Notes under the pieces: model-generated
What the model was told of the DNA's origin: nothing
The model's database searches: none
What the model saw: the letters and a program-made list of their open reading frames with translations, nothing else
Shown: positions 9,660 through 64,000 of the stretch, piece by piece
Numbering within the stretch: position 1 is the stretch's first letter
Layout: every line of letters starts with the position of its first letter
From: Polycladomyces abyssicola
GTDB lineage: Bacteria > Bacillota > Bacilli > Thermoactinomycetales > JIR-001
Direction of reading: 5' to 3'
Assembly (NCBI RefSeq): GCF_018326425.1
Contig: NZ_AP024601.1
Location: 2,406,001-2,470,000, forward strand
Length of the DNA: 64,000 nucleotides
Made by a program: the position numbers and the translations under genes

Positions 9660-9945
9660 AAAAAACCCCATCCTCAAGGGACGAGGTTCACCCGCGGTAC
9701 CACCCTTTTTGAAAGCAATGCTGCTTTCCGCTCGTTCGGATAACGGGTAAGTCACCCCCGTCGCACGAAGCCTGGACCTGTCTGGTCAATCCCCTTTTTC
9801 CGAATGACCATAAACAGTCCAATCGGCCTCATGCGAAGCTCCCAGGTGTAATTCGCACGGCGGGAACCACTGGTTCACACCAACCACCAGCTCTCTGTAG
9901 GGTCCGATCCGCCGGCTACTCGTCCTGTTCATCACTGCTCTCTGA
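9660..9945 (-). promoter_or_regulatory. Tyrosine T-box leader with terminator
   Basis: Read on the minus strand, it has a T-box sequence AAGGGTGGTACCGCG (complement of 9692-9706) followed by an intrinsic terminator, CCTCGTCC/GGATGGGG (about 9664-9684) with a run of T. Upstream in the stem I region GAATTACACC presents UAC (complement of 9848-9850), a tyrosine codon, as the specifier. Uncharged tRNA-Tyr should stabilise the antiterminator and switch tyrS on. Confidence 0.92.
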
Positions 9946-48780: not shown

Positions 48781-49167
48781 ATGCAAAGAAGCACGTCCAT
48801 GATCAGTATGATCGCCGGTGATCTGTTGGTATTGGTGCTGTTCACCGTAATCGGTCGAATCAGTCATTACCTGCCTTTGAATGTTGGTGCCATCCTTTGG
48901 ACCACGTTTCCTTTTGCGCTTGCTTGGCTGGTAATCGCCCCGTTGATGGGGCTATACCGCTCGGATGTACAGACCCGTTTTCTTTCCGTAACTTGGCGCG
49001 TGGGGCTAACAGTGTTGATTGCCGCACCGCTGGGCTCGTATTTGCGCGGCATTCTTCTTGGGCACCATATCATTTTCATTTTTTACGTGGTCACGACAGT
49101 TACGCTTCTGTTGATGATGTGGTTGTGGCGATGGGGTTTTACCTGGCGGCAACGTCGATCCCGATGA
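48781..49167 (+). CDS. DUF3054 membrane protein
   Basis: 128 residues and four membrane helices (MIAGDLLVLVLFTVIGRISH, LWTTFPFALAWLVIAPLMG, GLTVLIAAPLGSYLRGILL, FIFYVVTTVTLLLMMWLW). The pattern GD....FT..GR.SH matches DUF3054, of unknown function. AAGGAGGG precedes the ATG. Its 3' end overlaps the convergent cbiB gene by 29 bp. Confidence 0.83.
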   Translation: MQRSTSMISMIAGDLLVLVLFTVIGRISHYLPLNVGAILWTTFPFALAWLVIAPLMGLYRSDVQTRFLSVTWRVGLTVLIAAPLGSYLRGILLGHHIIFIFYVVTTVTLLLMMWLWRWGFTWRQRRSR

Positions 49168-50128
49168 TGGCGACTGCCAGTATACAGACATACAACCCCG
49201 TCGTCCAATACAATACACGGATGGATTCACAAATATGACGCGGATGCAACGCCTCCTTGGGATCGCCCAAATACCCCCGGTGAGAAGGCACACCCCGGTA
49301 CCAATTGGTTCCACCCAGCCGAATGCCCAAGCCGCCTGCCATCGCGGCCTCGGGAATACCGCTGTTGGGGCTGGGATGCCGATGTGCGTCTCTCCTTATT
49401 ATTTGCCATGCATGACGCCCATCCAAACGTAAAAAGACCATAGCCGCCAACATGGGCCATACGGTTAAACGAGCTGGCAACCAATTGACGACATCGTCCA
49501 GCCGGGCGGAAGCCCATCCCAAATACAGATACCGCTCATCCCGATACCCGACCATGGCGTCCAGCGTGTTGACCGCCCGGTACGCCATCGCCAGCGGGGC
49601 ACCGCCGATCGCCGCAAAAAATAACGGCGCGGTTACCGCGTCCACGATATTTTCGGCGATCGTCTCCACCCCCCCGCGCACGATTTCCCCTTCATCCAAC
49701 CGCTCGATGTCCCTGCCTACCACCATGGACAACGCGCGCCTCGCTTCTGCCAGATTCCCTTTGACCAGCGGTGACCAGATCGCCTTGCCCGCGTCCGCCA
49801 ATCCTTTCGTCGCGATGGTGGTGGCGACAAGTACCGTTTCCAGTCCCCACCCCAACCATGGGTGGACAGCCTCTGCCAATATCACCAGCAACCAAGTAAC
49901 GGCAAACGCTCCCCCCGCCACTACGACCGGCAAAACGATCCCCAGCAAACGAACGCGCGTCGGTGTAAGGGCTGCCCTCTCTTTCCATCTACCCATGATG
50001 CGTCGCAACCTTTTTTCCGTCGCCGCAATCACTTTCCCCATTCCGACGACGGGATGCGGCAGCCAACGGGGATCGCCGATCAAACGATCCAATATGTACG
50101 CGGCCAGCAACATCCATGCGGTCATCAT
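49139..50128 (-). CDS. cbiB: Adenosylcobinamide-phosphate synthase
   Basis: 329 residues. It attaches aminopropanol phosphate to adenosylcobyric acid. The integral membrane protein begins AAYILDRLIGDPRWLPHPVVGMG (CbiB/CobD signature) and includes DTADAGKAIWSPL-like GLADAGKAIW, VSRDTE-like VVGRDIERLDEGEIVRG and FAAIGGAPLAMAYRAVNTLD. The start overlaps the cbiZ stop (ATGA). It pairs with CobD, encoded 6 kb away, which supplies aminopropanol phosphate. Confidence 0.92.
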   Translation of the reverse strand: MMTAWMLLAAYILDRLIGDPRWLPHPVVGMGKVIAATEKRLRRIMGRWKERAALTPTRVRLLGIVLPVVVAGGAFAVTWLLVILAEAVHPWLGWGLETVLVATTIATKGLADAGKAIWSPLVKGNLAEARRALSMVVGRDIERLDEGEIVRGGVETIAENIVDAVTAPLFFAAIGGAPLAMAYRAVNTLDAMVGYRDERYLYLGWASARLDDVVNWLPARLTVWPMLAAMVFLRLDGRHAWQIIRRDAHRHPSPNSGIPEAAMAGGLGIRLGGTNWYRGVPSHRGYLGDPKEALHPRHICESIRVLYWTTGLYVCILAVAIIGIDVAAR

Positions 50129-50808
50129 CCGCTCAACGCCTCCGTCAACGCGCGGTATACCGCTTGTCCCACCGCTTGTCCCAGAGGGGTGGCCAAACCT
50201 GCATAATGATGCACCACACCTTCTACGGTACGTTGGGAAGCCGCCACCGCCACCACGTCGGTGGTTGTTCCCGTTGCCTGATCCCCGTCCCGGTCTTTTA
50301 CGCCCAGTACCTGCAATGCAGCCGATTTCGCTTCGGTCGCCGTGATCACCGTGTTGACCATGGCGGCTTCGGTCAGCCGCCCGTCCACCAACAGCAGGAT
50401 ATTAATCGTTCCCGGCGACGGCACATCCCTATAAATAGGCCCCGGTTTGCCCGCCCGTGCTGCATTGCTCACCCCCGCCGTCACCACAGCCGTCACCGTC
50501 ACCCCTGTTTCCGACCGCTTCACCACAGCAGCGCGGTCCGTCCATGCTGCTGTCAACAGGGCAACAGTCCGATCCGCATCAAATCCGTGATCCGCCATCC
50601 ACTTTTTTGTCTCACGGATGGGGTCGGCTTCACAATATCCATGCGGTACGTGACGGTTCACCAGATGATTGGTCTGGCGCCAACCGCCGTTGACCGGTGC
50701 ATTGCTGAGTACGCTCCACTCCCGCTCCATCCGAATGGAAACATAATCTGCCCCGATGCGATAGGAAACGCCGTTTTCCGTCCATTGTCGTATCTGCGTT
50801 GAATGCAT
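50125..50808 (-). CDS. cbiZ: Adenosylcobinamide amidohydrolase
   Basis: 227 residues. It cuts the aminopropanol side chain from (pseudo)cobinamides to yield cobyric acid, a salvage and remodelling step. The CbiZ signature runs VTVTAVVTAGVSNAARAGKP, SPGTINILLLVDGRLTEAAM and the later TATEAKSAALQVLGV. GGAGGTTAAC precedes the ATG. It is translationally coupled to cbiB, giving a compact salvage pair: CbiZ makes cobyric acid, CbiB reattaches the linker. Confidence 0.92.
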   Translation of the reverse strand: MHSTQIRQWTENGVSYRIGADYVSIRMEREWSVLSNAPVNGGWRQTNHLVNRHVPHGYCEADPIRETKKWMADHGFDADRTVALLTAAWTDRAAVVKRSETGVTVTAVVTAGVSNAARAGKPGPIYRDVPSPGTINILLLVDGRLTEAAMVNTVITATEAKSAALQVLGVKDRDGDQATGTTTDVVAVAASQRTVEGVVHHYAGLATPLGQAVGQAVYRALTEALSG

Positions 50809-54281: not shown

Positions 54282-54878
54282 TCATGACGGGTTCCACGGC
54301 TCTTCCTCCCATCCGTCTCTGCTTCGGCGAACCGCCAACACTCCACCGTGCGGCAGGGAAAAATCCCACAGTGCACGCGGATTCCGTTTCACCCACTTGG
54401 CATGAAACAGGCGAATCGGGCCTGCGTGGGCAACCGCCACCAATGTATCCCCACTTCCGTAGCAAACGGCCACTGCTTCCAACCATCGGCTTATGCGTTG
54501 TTCCATCTCCTGCAAACATTCTCCGCCGGGCGGTGACACACACCAGGGATCATCATACCAGCGCCGCAAATGTATTTCTTCGTTCGCCGCAATCTCGTCG
54601 TACGTTCGCCCTTCCCATTCTCCGAAGCCACATTCACGCAACAAAGGTGTGATCGTAAGCCGCACCAACGGATGATGAGCAGCAATTATGGATGCCGTTT
54701 CTTTGGCGCGACACAAATCACTGGTGTAGATCGCCGACACCCGTTCCCGGGAAAGTCGCTCCGCCACCATACGCGCCTGTTGTCTCCCCCGCTCATTGAT
54801 TGGATCATCCCAATGGCCGACATACCGTCCCTGCCGGTTGCCCTCCGTCTCTCCGTGACGCACCCAGATCAGCCGCAC
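54282..54878 (-). CDS. cobC: Histidine phosphatase, probable alpha-ribazole phosphatase
   Basis: 198 residues. The N-terminal RHG motif LIWVRHGETEGNRQGRYVGH carries the phospho-His, and the second His is in VAVAHAGPIRLF. In cobalamin assembly CobC removes the phosphate from alpha-ribazole-5'-P or adenosylcobalamin-5'-P. The assignment rests on its position 4 bp after cobS; broad phosphoglycerate-mutase-like activity is the alternative. A GTG start follows GGAGGTGAG. Last gene of the cobD-cobU-cobS-cobC run. Confidence 0.85.
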   Translation of the reverse strand: MRLIWVRHGETEGNRQGRYVGHWDDPINERGRQQARMVAERLSRERVSAIYTSDLCRAKETASIIAAHHPLVRLTITPLLRECGFGEWEGRTYDEIAANEEIHLRRWYDDPWCVSPPGGECLQEMEQRISRWLEAVAVCYGSGDTLVAVAHAGPIRLFHAKWVKRNPRALWDFSLPHGGVLAVRRSRDGWEEEPWNPS

Positions 54879-54882
54879 ACCC

Positions 54883-55611
54883 TCACCTCCACACGCAAAA
54901 TGCGACCAACACCGTCGCCTCCGTTACTTCCACGATCGCGCCGTACACGTCACCCGTCAATCCACCGATCCTGCGGATCACTCGCCTGGCCATCCACACC
55001 GTCACCACCAGGGTGATGGTCAACGGTAACATGGCAAGCCAACCGTCTGCCACCGCGAGCAGGATGATGCCGAAAGCATACGCACCGGCCACCTGCCACC
55101 CTGTTAGCGCTGCTTTCAACTGGGAACCAACCCCGTCCTGCCGAACATACGGCCAGAAATATATGGCCGACAGGATTGCCATCCTACCGGCCACGGGGGC
55201 GGAAAACAGCGCAGCTGCGGCGCTAAGACCCATATCATGCACCGCAGCCATTTTCACCAATATCACAAACAATGCGGCCAAAACGCCCATCGCCCCGACC
55301 CGGCTGTCCTTCATGATGGTCAAGGTTTGTTCACGGTCCCGGTTGGCCCCCATCCCGTCCGCCGTATCCATCAATCCGTCCAGATGAAGGCCTCCCGTCA
55401 GTCGCACCCACACCCCCACAACCAGTACGGTGCGAATCCAAGGAGGCAGCCAAGGCTCCGTCAACCAGTTGAACCCGGCGAGGCACAACCCGATCACACC
55501 GCCCACCGCAGGATAGAACACTGGACTGCTTCTCCATCCGTCCGAATGAAGCAAACGGGCGGGGATGGGTATACGCGTCAAAAAGGCCAATGCGGACCAA
55601 AATCCTCTCAT
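54883..55611 (-). CDS. cobS: Adenosylcobinamide-GDP ribazoletransferase
   Basis: 242 residues, integral membrane. It joins AdoCbi-GDP and alpha-ribazole to make adenosylcobalamin (phosphate). Motifs are FWSALAFLTRIPIP, FYPAVGGVIGLCLA and HLDGLMDTADGMGANRDREQTLTIMKDSRVGAMG (listed piecewise: HLDGLMDTADGMG with its Asp-rich site, then MKDSRVGAMG). The ATG at 55611 overlaps the cobU stop (ATGA), and GGAGG is upstream. Confidence 0.93.
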   Translation of the reverse strand: MRGFWSALAFLTRIPIPARLLHSDGWRSSPVFYPAVGGVIGLCLAGFNWLTEPWLPPWIRTVLVVGVWVRLTGGLHLDGLMDTADGMGANRDREQTLTIMKDSRVGAMGVLAALFVILVKMAAVHDMGLSAAAALFSAPVAGRMAILSAIYFWPYVRQDGVGSQLKAALTGWQVAGAYAFGIILLAVADGWLAMLPLTITLVVTVWMARRVIRRIGGLTGDVYGAIVEVTEATVLVAFCVWR

Positions 55612-56147
55612 CCTTTCAACCTCCAGGGAATCCCCGAAACCACCATCCACACTTCATCGGCGAATCGGGCAGTGAGTTGGTTGACTCTCCCCAACGCTTC
55701 CTGAAACAACCGCCCCATCGGTGACAGGGCCACACCGCCCAATCCCGTTTCATCGGTGACGATCACCGTTTTTTGTCGGCTAAAACAGGGAAGGAACCGG
55801 TTCCATTCCGTTTCCAGCTCTTCAGGCAATCGGCGAAATTTCTCCCGGTCTGATTCGTCGATACCCATCACCCGGTTGGCCACCCATGAGGAAAGGGAGT
55901 CAATCAGTACGATGTCGTAGGGTTCGGGATGGGACAGCCACTTTTGCGGTTCCAGCGGCTCCTCGATCAATCCCCAATCGTGCGGGCGACGTTGGCGGTG
56001 AAGCTCCACTCTCGCCCGCATCTCTTCATCCCGGGGAGTCCCACCCGTGGCAACGTAGAGGACACGCCCTCCCCAAGACCGGCAGATTTCTTCCGCGAAG
56101 GCGCTTTTGCCGGAACGAACTCCGCCGGTCACCATCACCACGCTCAC
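55608..56147 (-). CDS. cobU: Adenosylcobinamide kinase / guanylyltransferase
   Basis: 179 residues. It phosphorylates adenosylcobinamide and adds GMP to give AdoCbi-GDP. The P-loop is VTGGVRSGKSAFAEE, VLYVATGGTPRDEEM holds the GMP-acceptor region with the His in HRQRRPHDW, and VLIDSLSSWVAN is the Walker-B-like strand. A GTG start overlaps the cobD stop (GTGA). Full length. Confidence 0.94.
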   Translation of the reverse strand: MSVVMVTGGVRSGKSAFAEEICRSWGGRVLYVATGGTPRDEEMRARVELHRQRRPHDWGLIEEPLEPQKWLSHPEPYDIVLIDSLSSWVANRVMGIDESDREKFRRLPEELETEWNRFLPCFSRQKTVIVTDETGLGGVALSPMGRLFQEALGRVNQLTARFADEVWMVVSGIPWRLKG

Positions 56148-57274
56148 GAAGAAGCCGCCTCCTCATCCTGATCCAGACATTGTTTCAGGACCTTCACCAA
56201 CCGTTCATGCTCTTCGTCCGTCCGCACGGCCACGCGGAAATAACGCTCGTCCAGTCCGGGGTAATCAGCACAGTTACGAATCAGAATCCCCTGCCGTCCC
56301 AGTTGTTCCTGCAACCATGCCGCTGTTTTTCCCTCCCGTTCAAGACGAACCATGAGATAGTTGGTTTCGCTCGGGTACACTTTCAACCCCGGGATTCGGC
56401 TCAACTGCATGCGCAAAGACATCCGCGCCTGCTGTACCCATTCACGAACCCTCTGTTCGTACTCCTGATCCTGAAGGGCCGCTTCGCCGAGCACCTGTGC
56501 GACCGTATTGACGCTCCATGGAACCTGACGTTGTTCCAATCGTTTGACCCACTTGGGACTGGCCACCGCATAGCCGAGACGAACCCCTGCCAACGCATAG
56601 AATTTGGTGAGAGAGCGGAGCAGGATCACGCTAGGGTACGATTCGATTTGGCCAATCAACGACATGCGCTCCCCGTCGGGAATGAAATCGAGAAATGCCT
56701 CATCCACCACCAGTACCGTCTGGCAACGTATCGCCTCTTCGGCCACCTGTTTCAGCTCGTCAAAGGAGATGCGAAGTCCAGTCGGATTGTTGGGATAGCC
56801 CAGAAACACCAGATCTGTTTTGCGCACCAGTTCGCAAAGGCGTTCCACCGGCGGCAAAAAATGACTCTCTTCCTCCCCATACAGTGGGACAATCTCGATG
56901 TCACGCTTTTTGGCACTGCTGGTATAAGCCGAAAATGCAGGATACACGATCCCGACAACCGACGGCCGCACCACATCCAGAATCAGCTCGATCAACTCGG
57001 CCGCACCGTTGCCAATGGCGATCCGGGTCGGCGTCAGATTGTGCCGCTCTGCCAACAACGCCTTCAACCTTCGCGACCGGGGGTCTGGATACTGGGTGAT
57101 CACCGGTAATCTTTCCGTTTCCAGTATTCCTTTCAAGGCCTGCTTCACCGACGGCGGAGGACCGAAAGGCACGATATTGGCGCTGAAATCCAGGAACGAA
57201 TCGGGGTCACGACCGAACAACTCAGATGCCGTCACTCTGTCGCCACCATGACCATAACGTTCCAACCGGGACAA
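56144..57274 (-). CDS. cobD: L-threonine-O-3-phosphate decarboxylase (PLP aminotransferase fold)
   Basis: 376 residues of the HisC-like fold. It makes (R)-1-amino-2-propanol phosphate for the nucleotide loop. Features: DFSANIVPFGPPPSV at the N-terminus (CobD-typical), NGAAELIELIL, GYPNNPTGL, VVDEAFLDF (PLP Asp) and RSLTKFYALAGVRLGY (PLP Lys). CobD rather than HisC is chosen from context (cobU, cobS and cobC follow with overlaps). A TTG start at 57274, 6 nt after GGGAGGGG, is proposed. It lies 254 bp after nrdB. Confidence 0.9.
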   Translation of the reverse strand: MSRLERYGHGGDRVTASELFGRDPDSFLDFSANIVPFGPPPSVKQALKGILETERLPVITQYPDPRSRRLKALLAERHNLTPTRIAIGNGAAELIELILDVVRPSVVGIVYPAFSAYTSSAKKRDIEIVPLYGEEESHFLPPVERLCELVRKTDLVFLGYPNNPTGLRISFDELKQVAEEAIRCQTVLVVDEAFLDFIPDGERMSLIGQIESYPSVILLRSLTKFYALAGVRLGYAVASPKWVKRLEQRQVPWSVNTVAQVLGEAALQDQEYEQRVREWVQQARMSLRMQLSRIPGLKVYPSETNYLMVRLEREGKTAAWLQEQLGRQGILIRNCADYPGLDERYFRVAVRTDEEHERLVKVLKQCLDQDEEAASS

Positions 57275-57527: not shown

Positions 57528-58562
57528 TCACAAATCACCGAAGTCCAATCCGCCCGCTTTGGCGTAATTGGTTACCTTTTGCTCGAAGAAATCTGTTTTG
57601 GTTTGGTTCAGGTTGGAAAAATGCTCCACCCAGCGCAAGGGATGTTCTGTCTGTTCCGGATACAGAATGCCGAAGCCGAGCCGTTTCATCCGCTCATTGG
57701 CCAAATATTTGATGTAACGTTCAATCAGCTCATTGCTCAACCCGTCGATTTCGTTGTTAGTGATGTATTGCCCCCACCCGATTTCATGCTGTACGGCCGT
57801 ACGGGTCATGTCACGCAACTCTTCGATCCGTTCGGGCGTGAACAAGTTCGGGTTCTCCTTTTGCATCTCTTTCATCATGTTTTGGAAGAGCACGACATGG
57901 GTCAGCTCATCCCGTTGAATATATTTGATGATCGTGGCTGTGGCCGTCATTTTTCCTTGCCGGGCCAACGAATAAAAGAAGGTGAATCCGCTGTAGAAGT
58001 AAAGAGATTCCAGCAGGAAGTTGGCCATGCACGTTTTGACAAACTGCCAGTCGTCCTGATGTTCGACAAACTGTTGATAGAGATCGGCGATGAACCGATT
58101 GCGGCGCAGCAGGTGTTCGTCGTTCCGCCACTCGTCATAGATGTTTTCCCGGGTCTGCGCCGAACAGACGGTATCCAGGATATAGCTGTAGGATTGGGCG
58201 TGAATCTCTTCCTGAAACGCCTGGATGTTGAGCAGTGACGCCACTTCCGGTGCCGTGACGTACTCCCGGATGTTGGGCAGGTTTTCGCACTGAATGGAAT
58301 CCAAAAAGTTGAGAAACGAAATCGTTTTGTCAAAAGCGCGCCGCTCGGCCGGTGTCAGCTCCTCAAATTGTTTGACATCACCGGTCAGCGATATCTCCTC
58401 GGGAATCCAGAAGTTGTTCAGCATCGTGCGATACAGTTTGTACGCCCAATCATACTTGATACGGTTCCATTCCCGCAGGTTGGTGGTGTTGCCGTTGATC
58501 ATGCGCTGGGTGCCGCGTTGACCGTGTTCGTTGAAAATCTTTTTTCGTTGCAGTTTCTCCAT
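57528..58562 (-). CDS. nrdB: Ribonucleotide reductase beta subunit (class I)
   Basis: 344 residues. It carries the diiron-tyrosyl radical. Ligands and radical Tyr are visible: FQEEIHAQSYSYI (Glu-x2-His-x3-Tyr), MANFLLESLYFYSGF (Glu), IQRDELTHVVLF (Glu-x2-His). It therefore fits an Fe- or Mn-tyrosyl radical subclass rather than a Tyr-less one. AGGAGGAAAGAG precedes the ATG. It pairs with the large subunit encoded 156 bp upstream on the same strand; between them lies a 57-bp repeat. Confidence 0.95.
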   Translation of the reverse strand: MEKLQRKKIFNEHGQRGTQRMINGNTTNLREWNRIKYDWAYKLYRTMLNNFWIPEEISLTGDVKQFEELTPAERRAFDKTISFLNFLDSIQCENLPNIREYVTAPEVASLLNIQAFQEEIHAQSYSYILDTVCSAQTRENIYDEWRNDEHLLRRNRFIADLYQQFVEHQDDWQFVKTCMANFLLESLYFYSGFTFFYSLARQGKMTATATIIKYIQRDELTHVVLFQNMMKEMQKENPNLFTPERIEELRDMTRTAVQHEIGWGQYITNNEIDGLSNELIERYIKYLANERMKRLGFGILYPEQTEHPLRWVEHFSNLNQTKTDFFEQKVTNYAKAGGLDFGDL

Positions 58563-58718: not shown

Positions 58719-60932
58719 TCAGGACGAACAGCTGACGCATTCTTCCACTTCCAGCGATTGATTGCGCACATAGTAGACGGTTTTCAACCCGTTTTCCCAC
58801 GCGGCCAAATACATGGACAAAAATGCCTTGGCGTTGGTGTCCGGCGTGATAAACAGATTGAACGACTGCGACTGGTCGATGTGGCGTTGACGGATGCCTG
58901 CAGCACGAATGCTCCACATCTGGTCGATCCGGTGCGCCTCTTTGTAATACCAGAAGGTTTTCTCCGATAGATTGGGGGCGGTCTGCGGAATCAGCGCTCC
59001 CCGTTTCTCCTCGACAAAAAACTTGGCATACACCGGATCGATCCCGGCAGTCGAACCGGCGATGAGCGAGGTAGACCCCGTCGGTGCGACGGCGATCATC
59101 CAAGCATTGCGCACCCCGTATCGACTCACTTCCTCCCGCAGTGTTTGCCAACGCTCTCCGGTGTAACCGCACCGGTCAAAGAACGCGCCTGTCTGCCACT
59201 CGCTTCCTTCAAATGCCGGATACGCTCCTTTTTCCTTGGCCAGTTCCATCGAGGCCCGGATCGTCTGATAAGCGATCTCCTCAAACGACCGATCCGCTTC
59301 GGCCAGATGTTCTTCCGATTCCCAATCGATCCCTTTCTGTGCCAAGTATTGATGGTATCCGCTCGTACCCAATCCGACGGCCCGGTACTTGCGGTTGGTC
59401 ACTTCCGCCTGTTTTACCGGATACAGGTTGAGATCGATCACATTGTCCAACATGCGCATCTGGACCGGGATGATACGCGCCAAATCCGCCAGGTCTGTGA
59501 TCCGTCCCAAATTGATAGACGACAGGTTACAGACGACGAAGTCCCCCGGTTTTTGCTTAGTGACGATGACACCGTCCTCCAACTCCTCACTGATCAGCTC
59601 GGTCGGGGACATGTTTTGGCAAATCTCCGTGCACAAGTTGGAAGAATAGATCATTCCCTTGTGTTTGTTGGGATTGAGTCGGTTGACCGTATCGCGGAAG
59701 AACAGAAACGGTGTCCCGGTTTCATAGGCGCTCACCATGATACGCTTCATCACTTCAATCGCCGGGATTTCCTTACGGCTCAGTTCAGGATGGTTGACAC
59801 ACGCCTCATACCGCCGTTCAAACTCATCTCCCCAGGAGTCTTCCAGGCTGAACCCCATCACTTCACGCACTTCGTGCGGGTCGAACAGGTACCACATACC
59901 CCGTTCTTTCACCCGACGCATAAACAGGTCGGGAATGCATACGCCGGGAAAGATGTCGTGCGCTTTTAACCGGTCGTCCCCGTTGTTGGTTTTCAGGTTC
60001 AAAAAGTCCAGGATGTCCGCGTGCCACACGTCCAAATAGATGGCGAACGCCCCTTTACGCACACCCAGTTGATCCACCGCCACGGCAGTATTGTTGAAAT
60101 TGCGCACCCAGGGGATAACACCGCCGGAAGCGCCTTTGTGCCCGCGAATTTTGGACCCTTTGGAGCGAACTTTTCCCAGATAAATGCCCACACCGCCGCC
60201 GTGTTTGGACACCTGGGCGGTGGCGGTGTTGGTATTGTAAATAGACCACAGCGTATCGTCCACGGTATCGATGAAACAGGAAGAGAGCTGGTGCAACGGC
60301 CGCCCCGCATTGCTCATCGTCGGTGTCGCCACCGTTACTTCCAACCGGGACAACACATCGTACATCCGTTTGGCCCACGTCAACCGGTCTTTCTCTTTCA
60401 TCGCCAGATGCATCGCGATCACCATAAACCGCTCCTGCGGCAACTCCATCACCGCACCGTCATAATCCCGCACGAGATACCTGTCCGCCAAAATCTTCAA
60501 TCCGATGTAATGAAACAACCGGTCTCGCTCCGGACGAATTGAGGCTTCCAGCTCACGGATTTCCGTCTCGGTGTAGTGTTCCATCAGATAAGAACCGTAC
60601 AACCCTTTCGCCGTCAACTTTTGGAGCAGGTCGTAAAAATCGCCATATGCCCGCTGTTTACGGTCATATCCCCGGTTGTGCGCCGCCGCACGATACAATT
60701 CCTCTGCCAGCAAACGGGCGGCGACAAACTGCCAGCCCGGTTGTTCTACGCTGGTTTGTTCCACCGCCGTTTGCGCCAAAGTGCGCAGGATCTCCCGCTC
60801 CGACATCCCTTCCCGCAGCTACGCTCGGGCAACGACGATCAGTGATTGGGCATCGAGATCCCCCGTCTCTAGGCACACCGAGCGAACGAGCGACTCCCAG
60901 TCCAATTCTTTCTTCATCTCTACTTGTACCAT
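58719..60932 (-). pseudogene. nrdA: Ribonucleotide reductase alpha subunit (class I) with an in-frame amber codon
   Basis: 737 codons from the ATG at 60932 (GGAGAGGG upstream), with TAG at codon 38 (60819-60821). Before it comes MKKELDWESLVRSVCLETGD, an N-terminal helix typical of these enzymes; after it LREGMSEREILRTLAQTAVE continues in frame. Reinitiation at the ATG at 60806 would give 695 residues. Catalytic parts are intact: SSCFIDTVDD (Cys), SSNLCTEICQN (Cys, Glu), VVCNLSSINLG (Cys), TVYYVRNQS (Tyr pair) and the C-terminal EECVSCSS. No ATP-cone is seen. It is controlled by a B12 riboswitch. Whether the gene is dead, recoded or mis-sequenced is open. Confidence 0.85.
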
Positions 60933-60963
60933 CTACAAGCACCCTCTCCATTTCAGATGCGGA

Positions 60964-60999
60964 TAAAATAAAAACACTTCCCTAACAAGGGAAGTGTTT
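60964..60999 (-). terminator. Riboswitch expression-platform terminator
   Basis: On the minus strand AAACACTTCCCT, loop TGTT, AGGGAAGTGTTT, then TTATTTTAT. It lies 40 bp before the nrdA start and ends transcription when the riboswitch is off. Confidence 0.88.
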
Positions 61000-61125
61000 G
61001 ATGGGACACCAATCCAGCCGTGAACACAAAAACGGCACGACCCGCACAAGCCGATCACACCGATCGCGACACGCGGCACATCAAACACCTCCCTATCCTC
61101 GTAGGTCAACGGTGTTGTCGGAAAA

Positions 61126-61391
61126 GGCAGGTCTCCTGGCTCATGGATCATCGCATGGGGGGCTGCTGGTGGATGTCTCGAAAACAGGTTGATGCCGGGA
61201 ATCTTGTTTCCCACTCGCTCCTGTTTCGCTACATCCCCCGGCCCCCTGATGGCCGTGTCTTCCCGTCTTTCGATAGTGACAAACGGCCCGGCTCCCCATT
61301 CACAGTGGCGGGACCGCGCCGGATTTTCACCGGCTTCCCTCTTCGGGAGTGGACAAACCACTCCACCTTTTCCCACGGTATGTCGTTGTCC
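61126..61391 (-). promoter_or_regulatory. Cobalamin riboswitch
   Basis: On the minus strand the B12-box core GCCACTGTG, the preceding CCGGTGAAAATCCGGCG stem and the closing GAGACCTGCC are all present, giving an aptamer of about 265 nt. It controls a terminator in front of nrdA. Elsewhere, such riboswitches switch off B12-independent enzymes when B12 is plentiful; a class II reductase is then expected elsewhere in the genome. Confidence 0.93.
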
Positions 61392-62562: not shown

Positions 62563-62828
62563 TTGCCCCACACGGCTAAAGCCGTGGGCTTCTCGCTTCA
62601 TCTGGCGTGGCAACCCACATCCATCCACGATGGCTTCGTCCAAGCCTAGTGAGTTTAGTTTATCGAGATTTCGATCGCAAAGTAGTTTTAAGTGTTTTCG
62701 CACTTTTCTACATAATTGTACCAAAATTCTGTCGGACTTGCAAGAGGGCTTAAGCCCTCCCTCGTCCGACGCTCGCTTTCATCCCAAACCTGAAGGGCTG
62801 GGTTTTCCCGCTCGCTCTTTATAAGAGC
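62563..62828 (-). mobile_element. Internally deleted IS200/IS605-type element (both ends, no transposase)
   Basis: Read on the minus strand: left-end hairpin GAGGGCTTAAGCCCTC, a promoter TTGCAA-N17-TACAAT, a short tnpB-like start (CGAAAACACTTAAAACTACT), then directly the right end GTGGGTTGCCACGCCAGATG and a hairpin ACGGCTTTAGCCGT. The right end is shared with the tnpB element at 63780-63885. About 265 bp, consistent with a PATE/MITE derivative that retains both ends. Confidence 0.65.
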
Positions 62829-63779: not shown

Positions 63780-63885
63780 TCGTCTTGCTCCACACGGCTC
63801 AATTACCTGAGTCTCTCCCTTTGTTCGCCATGGGCTTCTCGCTTCATCTGGCGTGGCAACCCACATCATCCGCGATGGCTTAATC
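63780..63885 (-). mobile_element. Right end of an IS200/IS605-type tnpB element
   Basis: After the tnpB stop the minus strand reads GTGGGTTGCCACGCCAGATG then GAAGCGAGAAGCCCATGG, shared with the mini-element at 62563. In this family the region forms the 3' scaffold of an omega (reRNA) guide. It carries an extra 30-bp segment relative to the mini-element. Confidence 0.6.
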
Positions 63886-64000
63886 CTAGAAAAGTGTTAG
63901 TTCTAATAGCTCGTATCTCGGTCCAGGAACGTATCCCATCGCTCGAAGCTGGATATTTCTTGCGGCATTGACATCTCTGTTAGTCACATATCCGCATGAG
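63886..64000 (-). CDS. tnpB: TnpB (IS200/IS605 OrfB) C-terminus, partial
   Basis: The last 37 codons are inside the window: SCGYVTNRDVNAARNIQLRA then MGYVPGPRYELLELTLF and stop. CGYVTNRDVNAARNI is the RuvC III motif with its catalytic Asp. TnpB is an RNA-guided nuclease that helps keep the element in place. The rest lies beyond the window. Confidence 0.85.
   Translation of the reverse strand, partial: SCGYVTNRDVNAARNIQLRAMGYVPGPRYELLELTLF

Follow-up and report, generated by a model that had tools for sequence, protein, structure and literature searches.

We found that nrdA, which encodes the large subunit of the class I ribonucleotide reductase of Polycladomyces abyssicola JIR-001, a thermophile from sediment, is interrupted by an in-frame amber codon. 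This is probably a nonsense allele of recent origin in a backup gene that is only conditionally expressed, and it would be tolerated because a riboswitch turns nrdA off when B12 is available and the class II enzyme NrdJ, with B12, covers its role. We propose that a recent C-to-T mutation in JIR-001 turned the conserved Gln38 codon into TAG and would largely disable the B12-independent class I reductase, with a presumably near-null effect. When B12 is present, the cobalamin riboswitch, if it acts like its characterised relatives, would stop transcription before nrdA, and the intact, B12-dependent NrdJ would then supply deoxyribonucleotides. Under such B12-replete growth, the allele may have risen by drift or laboratory passage. 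Nonsense alleles and the B12 riboswitch-nrdAB arrangement are both already known, and this would be an ordinary nonsense allele; we found no earlier report of it in the openly licensed literature (CC0, CC BY, CC BY-SA).

The amber codon and its conservation

The window, which is the whole 64,000-nucleotide stretch of DNA analysed, carries nrdA on the minus strand as a single frame of 737 codons without frameshift, from an ATG at 60932 to a stop at 58719-58721 (Table 1). A preliminary description of this DNA had reported one in-frame TAG at codon 38 with homology on both sides. This was borne out: the TAG at 60821-60819 is the sole internal stop in the 737 codons, and the protein of the congener G001 is 81% identical over the 37 residues before it and 96% identical over the 689 residues after it. 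The lesion is therefore a stop within homologous coding sequence whose orthologues are intact. Pfam families PF00317 and PF02867 span residues 139-722 of the full frame, and the read-through frame scores over the curated cut-offs of TIGR02506 (615 bits vs 341) and NF006665 (1080 vs 1057). In an alignment of 34 sequences, C219, C434, C468, C732, Y720 and Y721 are invariant and C735 is nearly so. We take the cysteines to be the catalytic and C-terminal ones and the tyrosines to be those of radical transfer, in agreement with the earlier statement that all catalytic residues are retained.

Table 1 Features of the nrdAB region in the window
Feature	Position	Strand	Basis
Cobalamin riboswitch aptamer (RF00174)	61109..61385	-	99.4 bits vs gathering score 31.5; in both congeners too
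Antiterminator 5' strand, predicted (AGGGAGGUGUUUGAUG), pairs with 61003-60988	61079..61094	-	minimum free energy fold z = -3.55; identical in 3 species
Terminator hairpin, then T-rich tail	60972..60999	-	12 pairs; overlaps antiterminator 3' strand
Shine-Dalgarno, full-length nrdA (GGAGAGGG)	60942..60949	-	sequence; duplex -6.9 kcal/mol; nine bases before ATG 60932
nrdA codons 1-37	60822..60932	-	sequence; coding conservation across genus
In-frame amber codon, nrdA codon 38	60819..60821	-	sequence; both congeners CAG
Downstream open frame from Met43, 695 aa, possible restart product, all RNR domains inside	58719..60806	-	PF00317, PF02867
nrdB, class I small subunit, 344 aa, intact	57528..58562	-	NF007184, 480 bits vs cut-off 310
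Aminotransferase, CobD/CobC-type by context; cobalamin role inferred from neighbours	56144..57274	-	PF00155
cobU	55608..56147	-	PF02283, 157 bits
cobS	54883..55650	-	PF02654, 183 bits
Histidine phosphatase, cobC-type by context	54282..54878	-	PF00300, 179 bits

We aligned codon 38 in 109 relatives (29 loci from a whole-genome search and 80 from genome contigs), of which 102 were left after removal of 7 rows duplicated between the two sources. All 109 carry a sense codon at this site, which is CAG or CAA in 37 of them. Gln38 is present in 30 of the 102 distinct rows overall and in all 22 distinct rows of the close clade (L002-L023), where it is the only invariant residue among the first 50. Both congeners, at 95-96% identity, carry CAG, the kind of codon that had been expected at this position. 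Since the congeners have CAG and no relative has the stop, the amber codon is, on this alignment, a single C-to-T substitution on the branch of P. abyssicola, one of three sequenced species.

Stops were seen in 10 of the 48 congener ORFs aligned to the window between 18.5 and 61.4 kb. In nrdB and an enolase-family gene the stop is ahead of the ATG, and in a GNAT gene it is ahead of the domain; six further ORFs, which lack a Pfam match, resemble shadow ORFs, and the tenth is nrdA. Because a domain criterion alone would set nrdA aside too, its case rests on the conserved upstream codons and on Gln38, not on Pfam. Automatic annotation would probably choose ATG 60806 as the start, but it is barely credible that nrdA begins there and that the upstream homology is non-coding, as codons 1-37 behave like coding sequence across the genus (11 nonsynonymous vs 13 synonymous singletons, P = 0.0009 vs neutrality) and Gln38 never varies within the clade. 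The preliminary description had named relatives that start at this ATG as contrary evidence, but the relatives do not start there: besides the coding conservation of the upstream codons, Met43 corresponds to an internal residue and is replaced by another amino acid in 7 of the 22 close rows.

The change concerns one base in one genome, with one genome per species compared, and might stem from a mistake in assembly or base calling, or from a variant limited to the sequenced colony. We consider this distinctly improbable. Consensus errors at isolated C/T positions are uncommon with Illumina data, and the change is a substitution, not an indel. The genome is a single contig of 3,197,230 bases from a Unicycler hybrid assembly of Flongle (Nanopore) and NovaSeq (Illumina) reads, sequenced from a single-colony culture in BSW-1 medium (PMC8210696), which makes the mis-sequencing considered earlier unlikely.

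Possible restart at Met43 and decoding of the amber codon

Among the rivals to a nonsense allele, a functional restart is the main one and sequence error comes second, while readthrough is unlikely. In the first, ribosomes ending at the TAG would re-initiate at ATG 60806 (Met43), 12 nt beyond it, and make an active NrdA of 695 aa without two of the N-terminal helices. We hold this to be unlikely, though less so than the other rivals. GGGAAGGG lies between the TAG and this ATG and can form a duplex of -7.0 kcal/mol, but its best Shine-Dalgarno register is flush with the start codon, which agrees with the poorly spaced ribosome site noted before. The 695-aa form was modelled as well as the read-through protein (mean pLDDT 87.6 and 87.1, respectively); however, AlphaFold is insensitive to truncation. 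Within codons 1-37, the ratio of nonsynonymous to synonymous changes (N:S) is 6:3 on this branch vs 5:10 in the congeners, which would favour a restart, but the difference is not significant (p = 0.21), nor does 6:3 differ from neutral (P = 0.34). Constraint after the stop is equally expected if the restart product is functional. The invariance of Gln38 in the clade (22/22) indicates that the lost part probably matters.

The model places helices at residues 12-23 and 28-38 before Met43 and at 45-58 and 67-87 after it, with Gln38 ending the second helix. No Pfam match to the ATP-cone, an optional domain of the large subunit, was obtained in the NrdA frame at E up to 1. From about residue 4, the N-terminal helices of the model can be superposed on the large subunits of E. 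coli, human and Aquifex. For B. subtilis NrdE, which is a functioning enzyme, the alignment starts no earlier than model residue 37-51, depending on the entry among those listed. According to an excerpt of PMC6572854, the partial cones of class Ib enzymes correspond to the final two helices of the cone. On our model, two helices would be lost in a Met43 restart and the remaining piece of the cone would be of class Ib size; a working product is conceivable. Like class Ib NrdE with its truncated ATP-cone, as excerpted there, this product would keep just the last two cone helices; unlike class Ib NrdE, the protein is of NrdA type and the putative truncation would arise through a nonsense codon. 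The flush Shine-Dalgarno register and the invariant Gln38 speak against a restart product as good as the original NrdA.

A functional restart would, if true, be a step towards a class Ib-like N-terminus and the more interesting outcome. We strongly doubt the further reading that amber codon and restart together represent a functional natural trimming that leaves a secondary and seldom expressed reductase with a class Ib-like partial cone. Such trimming, if true, would exemplify in a living organism the path by which class Ib is hypothesised to have arisen, namely cone truncation in a secondary RNR (PMC6572854, in excerpt).

Functional readthrough or suppression of codon 38 had also been raised in the preliminary description, and we regard it as very unlikely. 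Every catalytic residue is still present, and in-frame stops under purifying selection, including a CAG/TAG example, are described as widespread in bacteria in an excerpt of PMC7918605. However, none of the 109 relatives shares the stop, and the genome encodes two members of the RF-1 family (362 and 357 aa), in line with one RF1 and one RF2. TAG also ends 5 of 38 ordinary ORFs in the window, in a rough count that includes shadow ORFs. As for the suppressor tRNA that had been proposed as a check, ARAGORN found no CUA anticodon on 19 stretches covering 53 Rfam tRNA sites, in a screen that is incomplete, as tRNA-Ile(GAU) and tRNA-Ala(UGC) were also unfound by the same searches. A lax tRNA search added nothing, and the rRNA loci gave no tRNA; two 16S genes were reported in the genome vs four rRNA clusters in PMC8210696. 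Like the two missing tRNAs, this probably reflects a limit of the search.

Cobalamin riboswitch, NrdJ and B12 genes

The nrdA leader combines a cobalamin riboswitch aptamer with an antiterminator and a terminator (Table 1), and we infer the usual off-by-B12 layout. A cobalamin riboswitch precedes nrdA in all three loci of the genus and in none of 17 other loci scanned. Instead, NrdR-box-like repeats are found upstream in the close clade outside the genus, where all 20 loci score at least 12/16 with an NrdR-box consensus, compared with 8-9 for the three genus loci. The region at 60940-61385 (minus strand) looks like a regulator swap, with a riboswitch in the genus where close relatives have NrdR-box-like repeats.

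A cysteine-rich frame, GLCGSCRFCVHG, at 61020-61079 (minus strand) between the riboswitch and the nrdA terminator, is kept in the three species. It was considered as a leader peptide and rejected: it sits within the antiterminator fold, what looks like its ribosome site is the antiterminator strand, and a motif scan recovered it in 0 of 107 other loci. We treat it as RNA structure rather than a gene.

An intact nrdJ was found, as the preliminary description had suggested checking. It encodes an open 1121-aa, B12-dependent class II enzyme (TIGR02504, 604 bits vs cut-off 400), and the genome gave no match to the class III NRDD family. Genes for B12 synthesis, uptake and adenosylation are present, and three further cobalamin riboswitches adjoin genes for cobalt transport, corrin synthesis, B12-type uptake and adenosyltransferase. 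Because of the riboswitch and terminator, the intact NrdJ and these B12 genes, nrdAB should normally be silent and dispensable. The earlier suggestion of a silenced gene for which a class II enzyme suffices thus gains from NrdJ and also from a feature absent from that account, namely that the whole unit lies behind a cobalamin riboswitch. In the clade member G022, only an NrdJ-type match was found, and class I therefore appears dispensable within the clade.

Work by Borovok from 2006 reportedly described B12-riboswitch control of Streptomyces nrdABS, and the present locus is similar in having a cobalamin riboswitch before a B12-independent nrdAB-type isozyme. The same likeness holds for Bacillus methanolicus, in which an excerpt of PMC4342826 lists a B12 riboswitch (AdoCbl) ahead of nrdAB. 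Unlike these systems, as far as those accounts go, nrdA carries an amber codon here and the cobalamin nucleotide-loop genes of the genus follow nrdB. In delta-proteobacteria, B12 repression of the B12-independent reductase NrdDG has been proposed (PMC545781, in excerpt).

The aminotransferase, cobU, cobS and phosphatase genes are located 3' of nrdB in all three species of the genus (window 54282-57274 on the minus strand, L177 and L180). Among 80 other loci, cobU/cobS adjoin nrdAB in none, and two weak phosphatase matches were seen. From this gene order, nrdAB and the cob genes possibly form a single operon in which one B12 riboswitch precedes both a B12-independent reductase and genes of B12 synthesis. 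Between nrdB and the cob genes, hairpins occur in G000 and G001, and none in G002 by the same scan, so co-transcription of nrdB and the cob genes and a polar effect of the amber codon are no more than possible. Elsewhere in the window, cbiB and cbiZ (49139-50808, minus strand) represent cobinamide synthesis and salvage.

Age and possible consequences of the allele

We counted N:S from single-lineage substitutions among the three species, dropping three-state sites (14, 1 and 5). For nrdA as a whole, N:S is 21:66 on this branch vs 28:130 on the other two (p = 0.25), and for the codons after codon 38 it is 15:63 vs 23:120 in the two congeners (p = 0.58). The corresponding values are 6:19 vs 5:61 for nrdB (p = 0.065) and 7:68 vs 23:164 for nrdJ (p = 0.67), for which G001 was compared over 1063 residues only. 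Pooling nrdA and nrdB gives a weak N:S excess on this branch at p = 0.049, a hint of relaxed selection rather than the signature of an old pseudogene.

Since N:S after the stop does not differ from that of the congeners, any neutral phase must have been short. If the stop ended selection, the neutral share of the branch is at most ~8% for the whole of nrdA and ~6% for the post-stop codons (95% upper bounds; the model is simple and takes no account of transition bias). Apart from the stop, nrdA is intact and under strong constraint, which supports a recent loss, if the stop kills nrdA. The preliminary description had read the intact catalytic residues as pointing to a very recent change or to readthrough. 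The first alternative is strengthened by the downstream constraint, and the second is weakened by the stop being private to this genome, by the lack of a CUA tRNA in the incomplete screen and by the presence of RF1.

Belinky et al. 2021 (PMC7918605, in excerpt) described in-frame nonsense alleles in bacterial genes that are otherwise under constraint. The nrdA allele resembles them as a single CAG-to-TAG change with homology and constraint on both sides; it differs in that the excerpted set needed the stop in two or more genomes, and here it is present in one. A nonsense allele in nrdA would illustrate that a riboswitch which silences a backup enzyme can shelter such an allele within it. If the allele is null, the strain would depend on B12 for DNA synthesis. 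For annotation, any NrdA of 695 aa predicted in this genome would be a truncated form.

Two other features of the window were observed. A direct repeat at 62581-62651 and 63827-63896, with matching parts of 41 nt (98%) and 30 nt (77%) ~1246 nt apart, flanks a PEMT/ICMT-type methyltransferase gene and looks like the ends of insertion elements. A T-box leader is located at 9674-9941 on the minus strand (122.7 bits).
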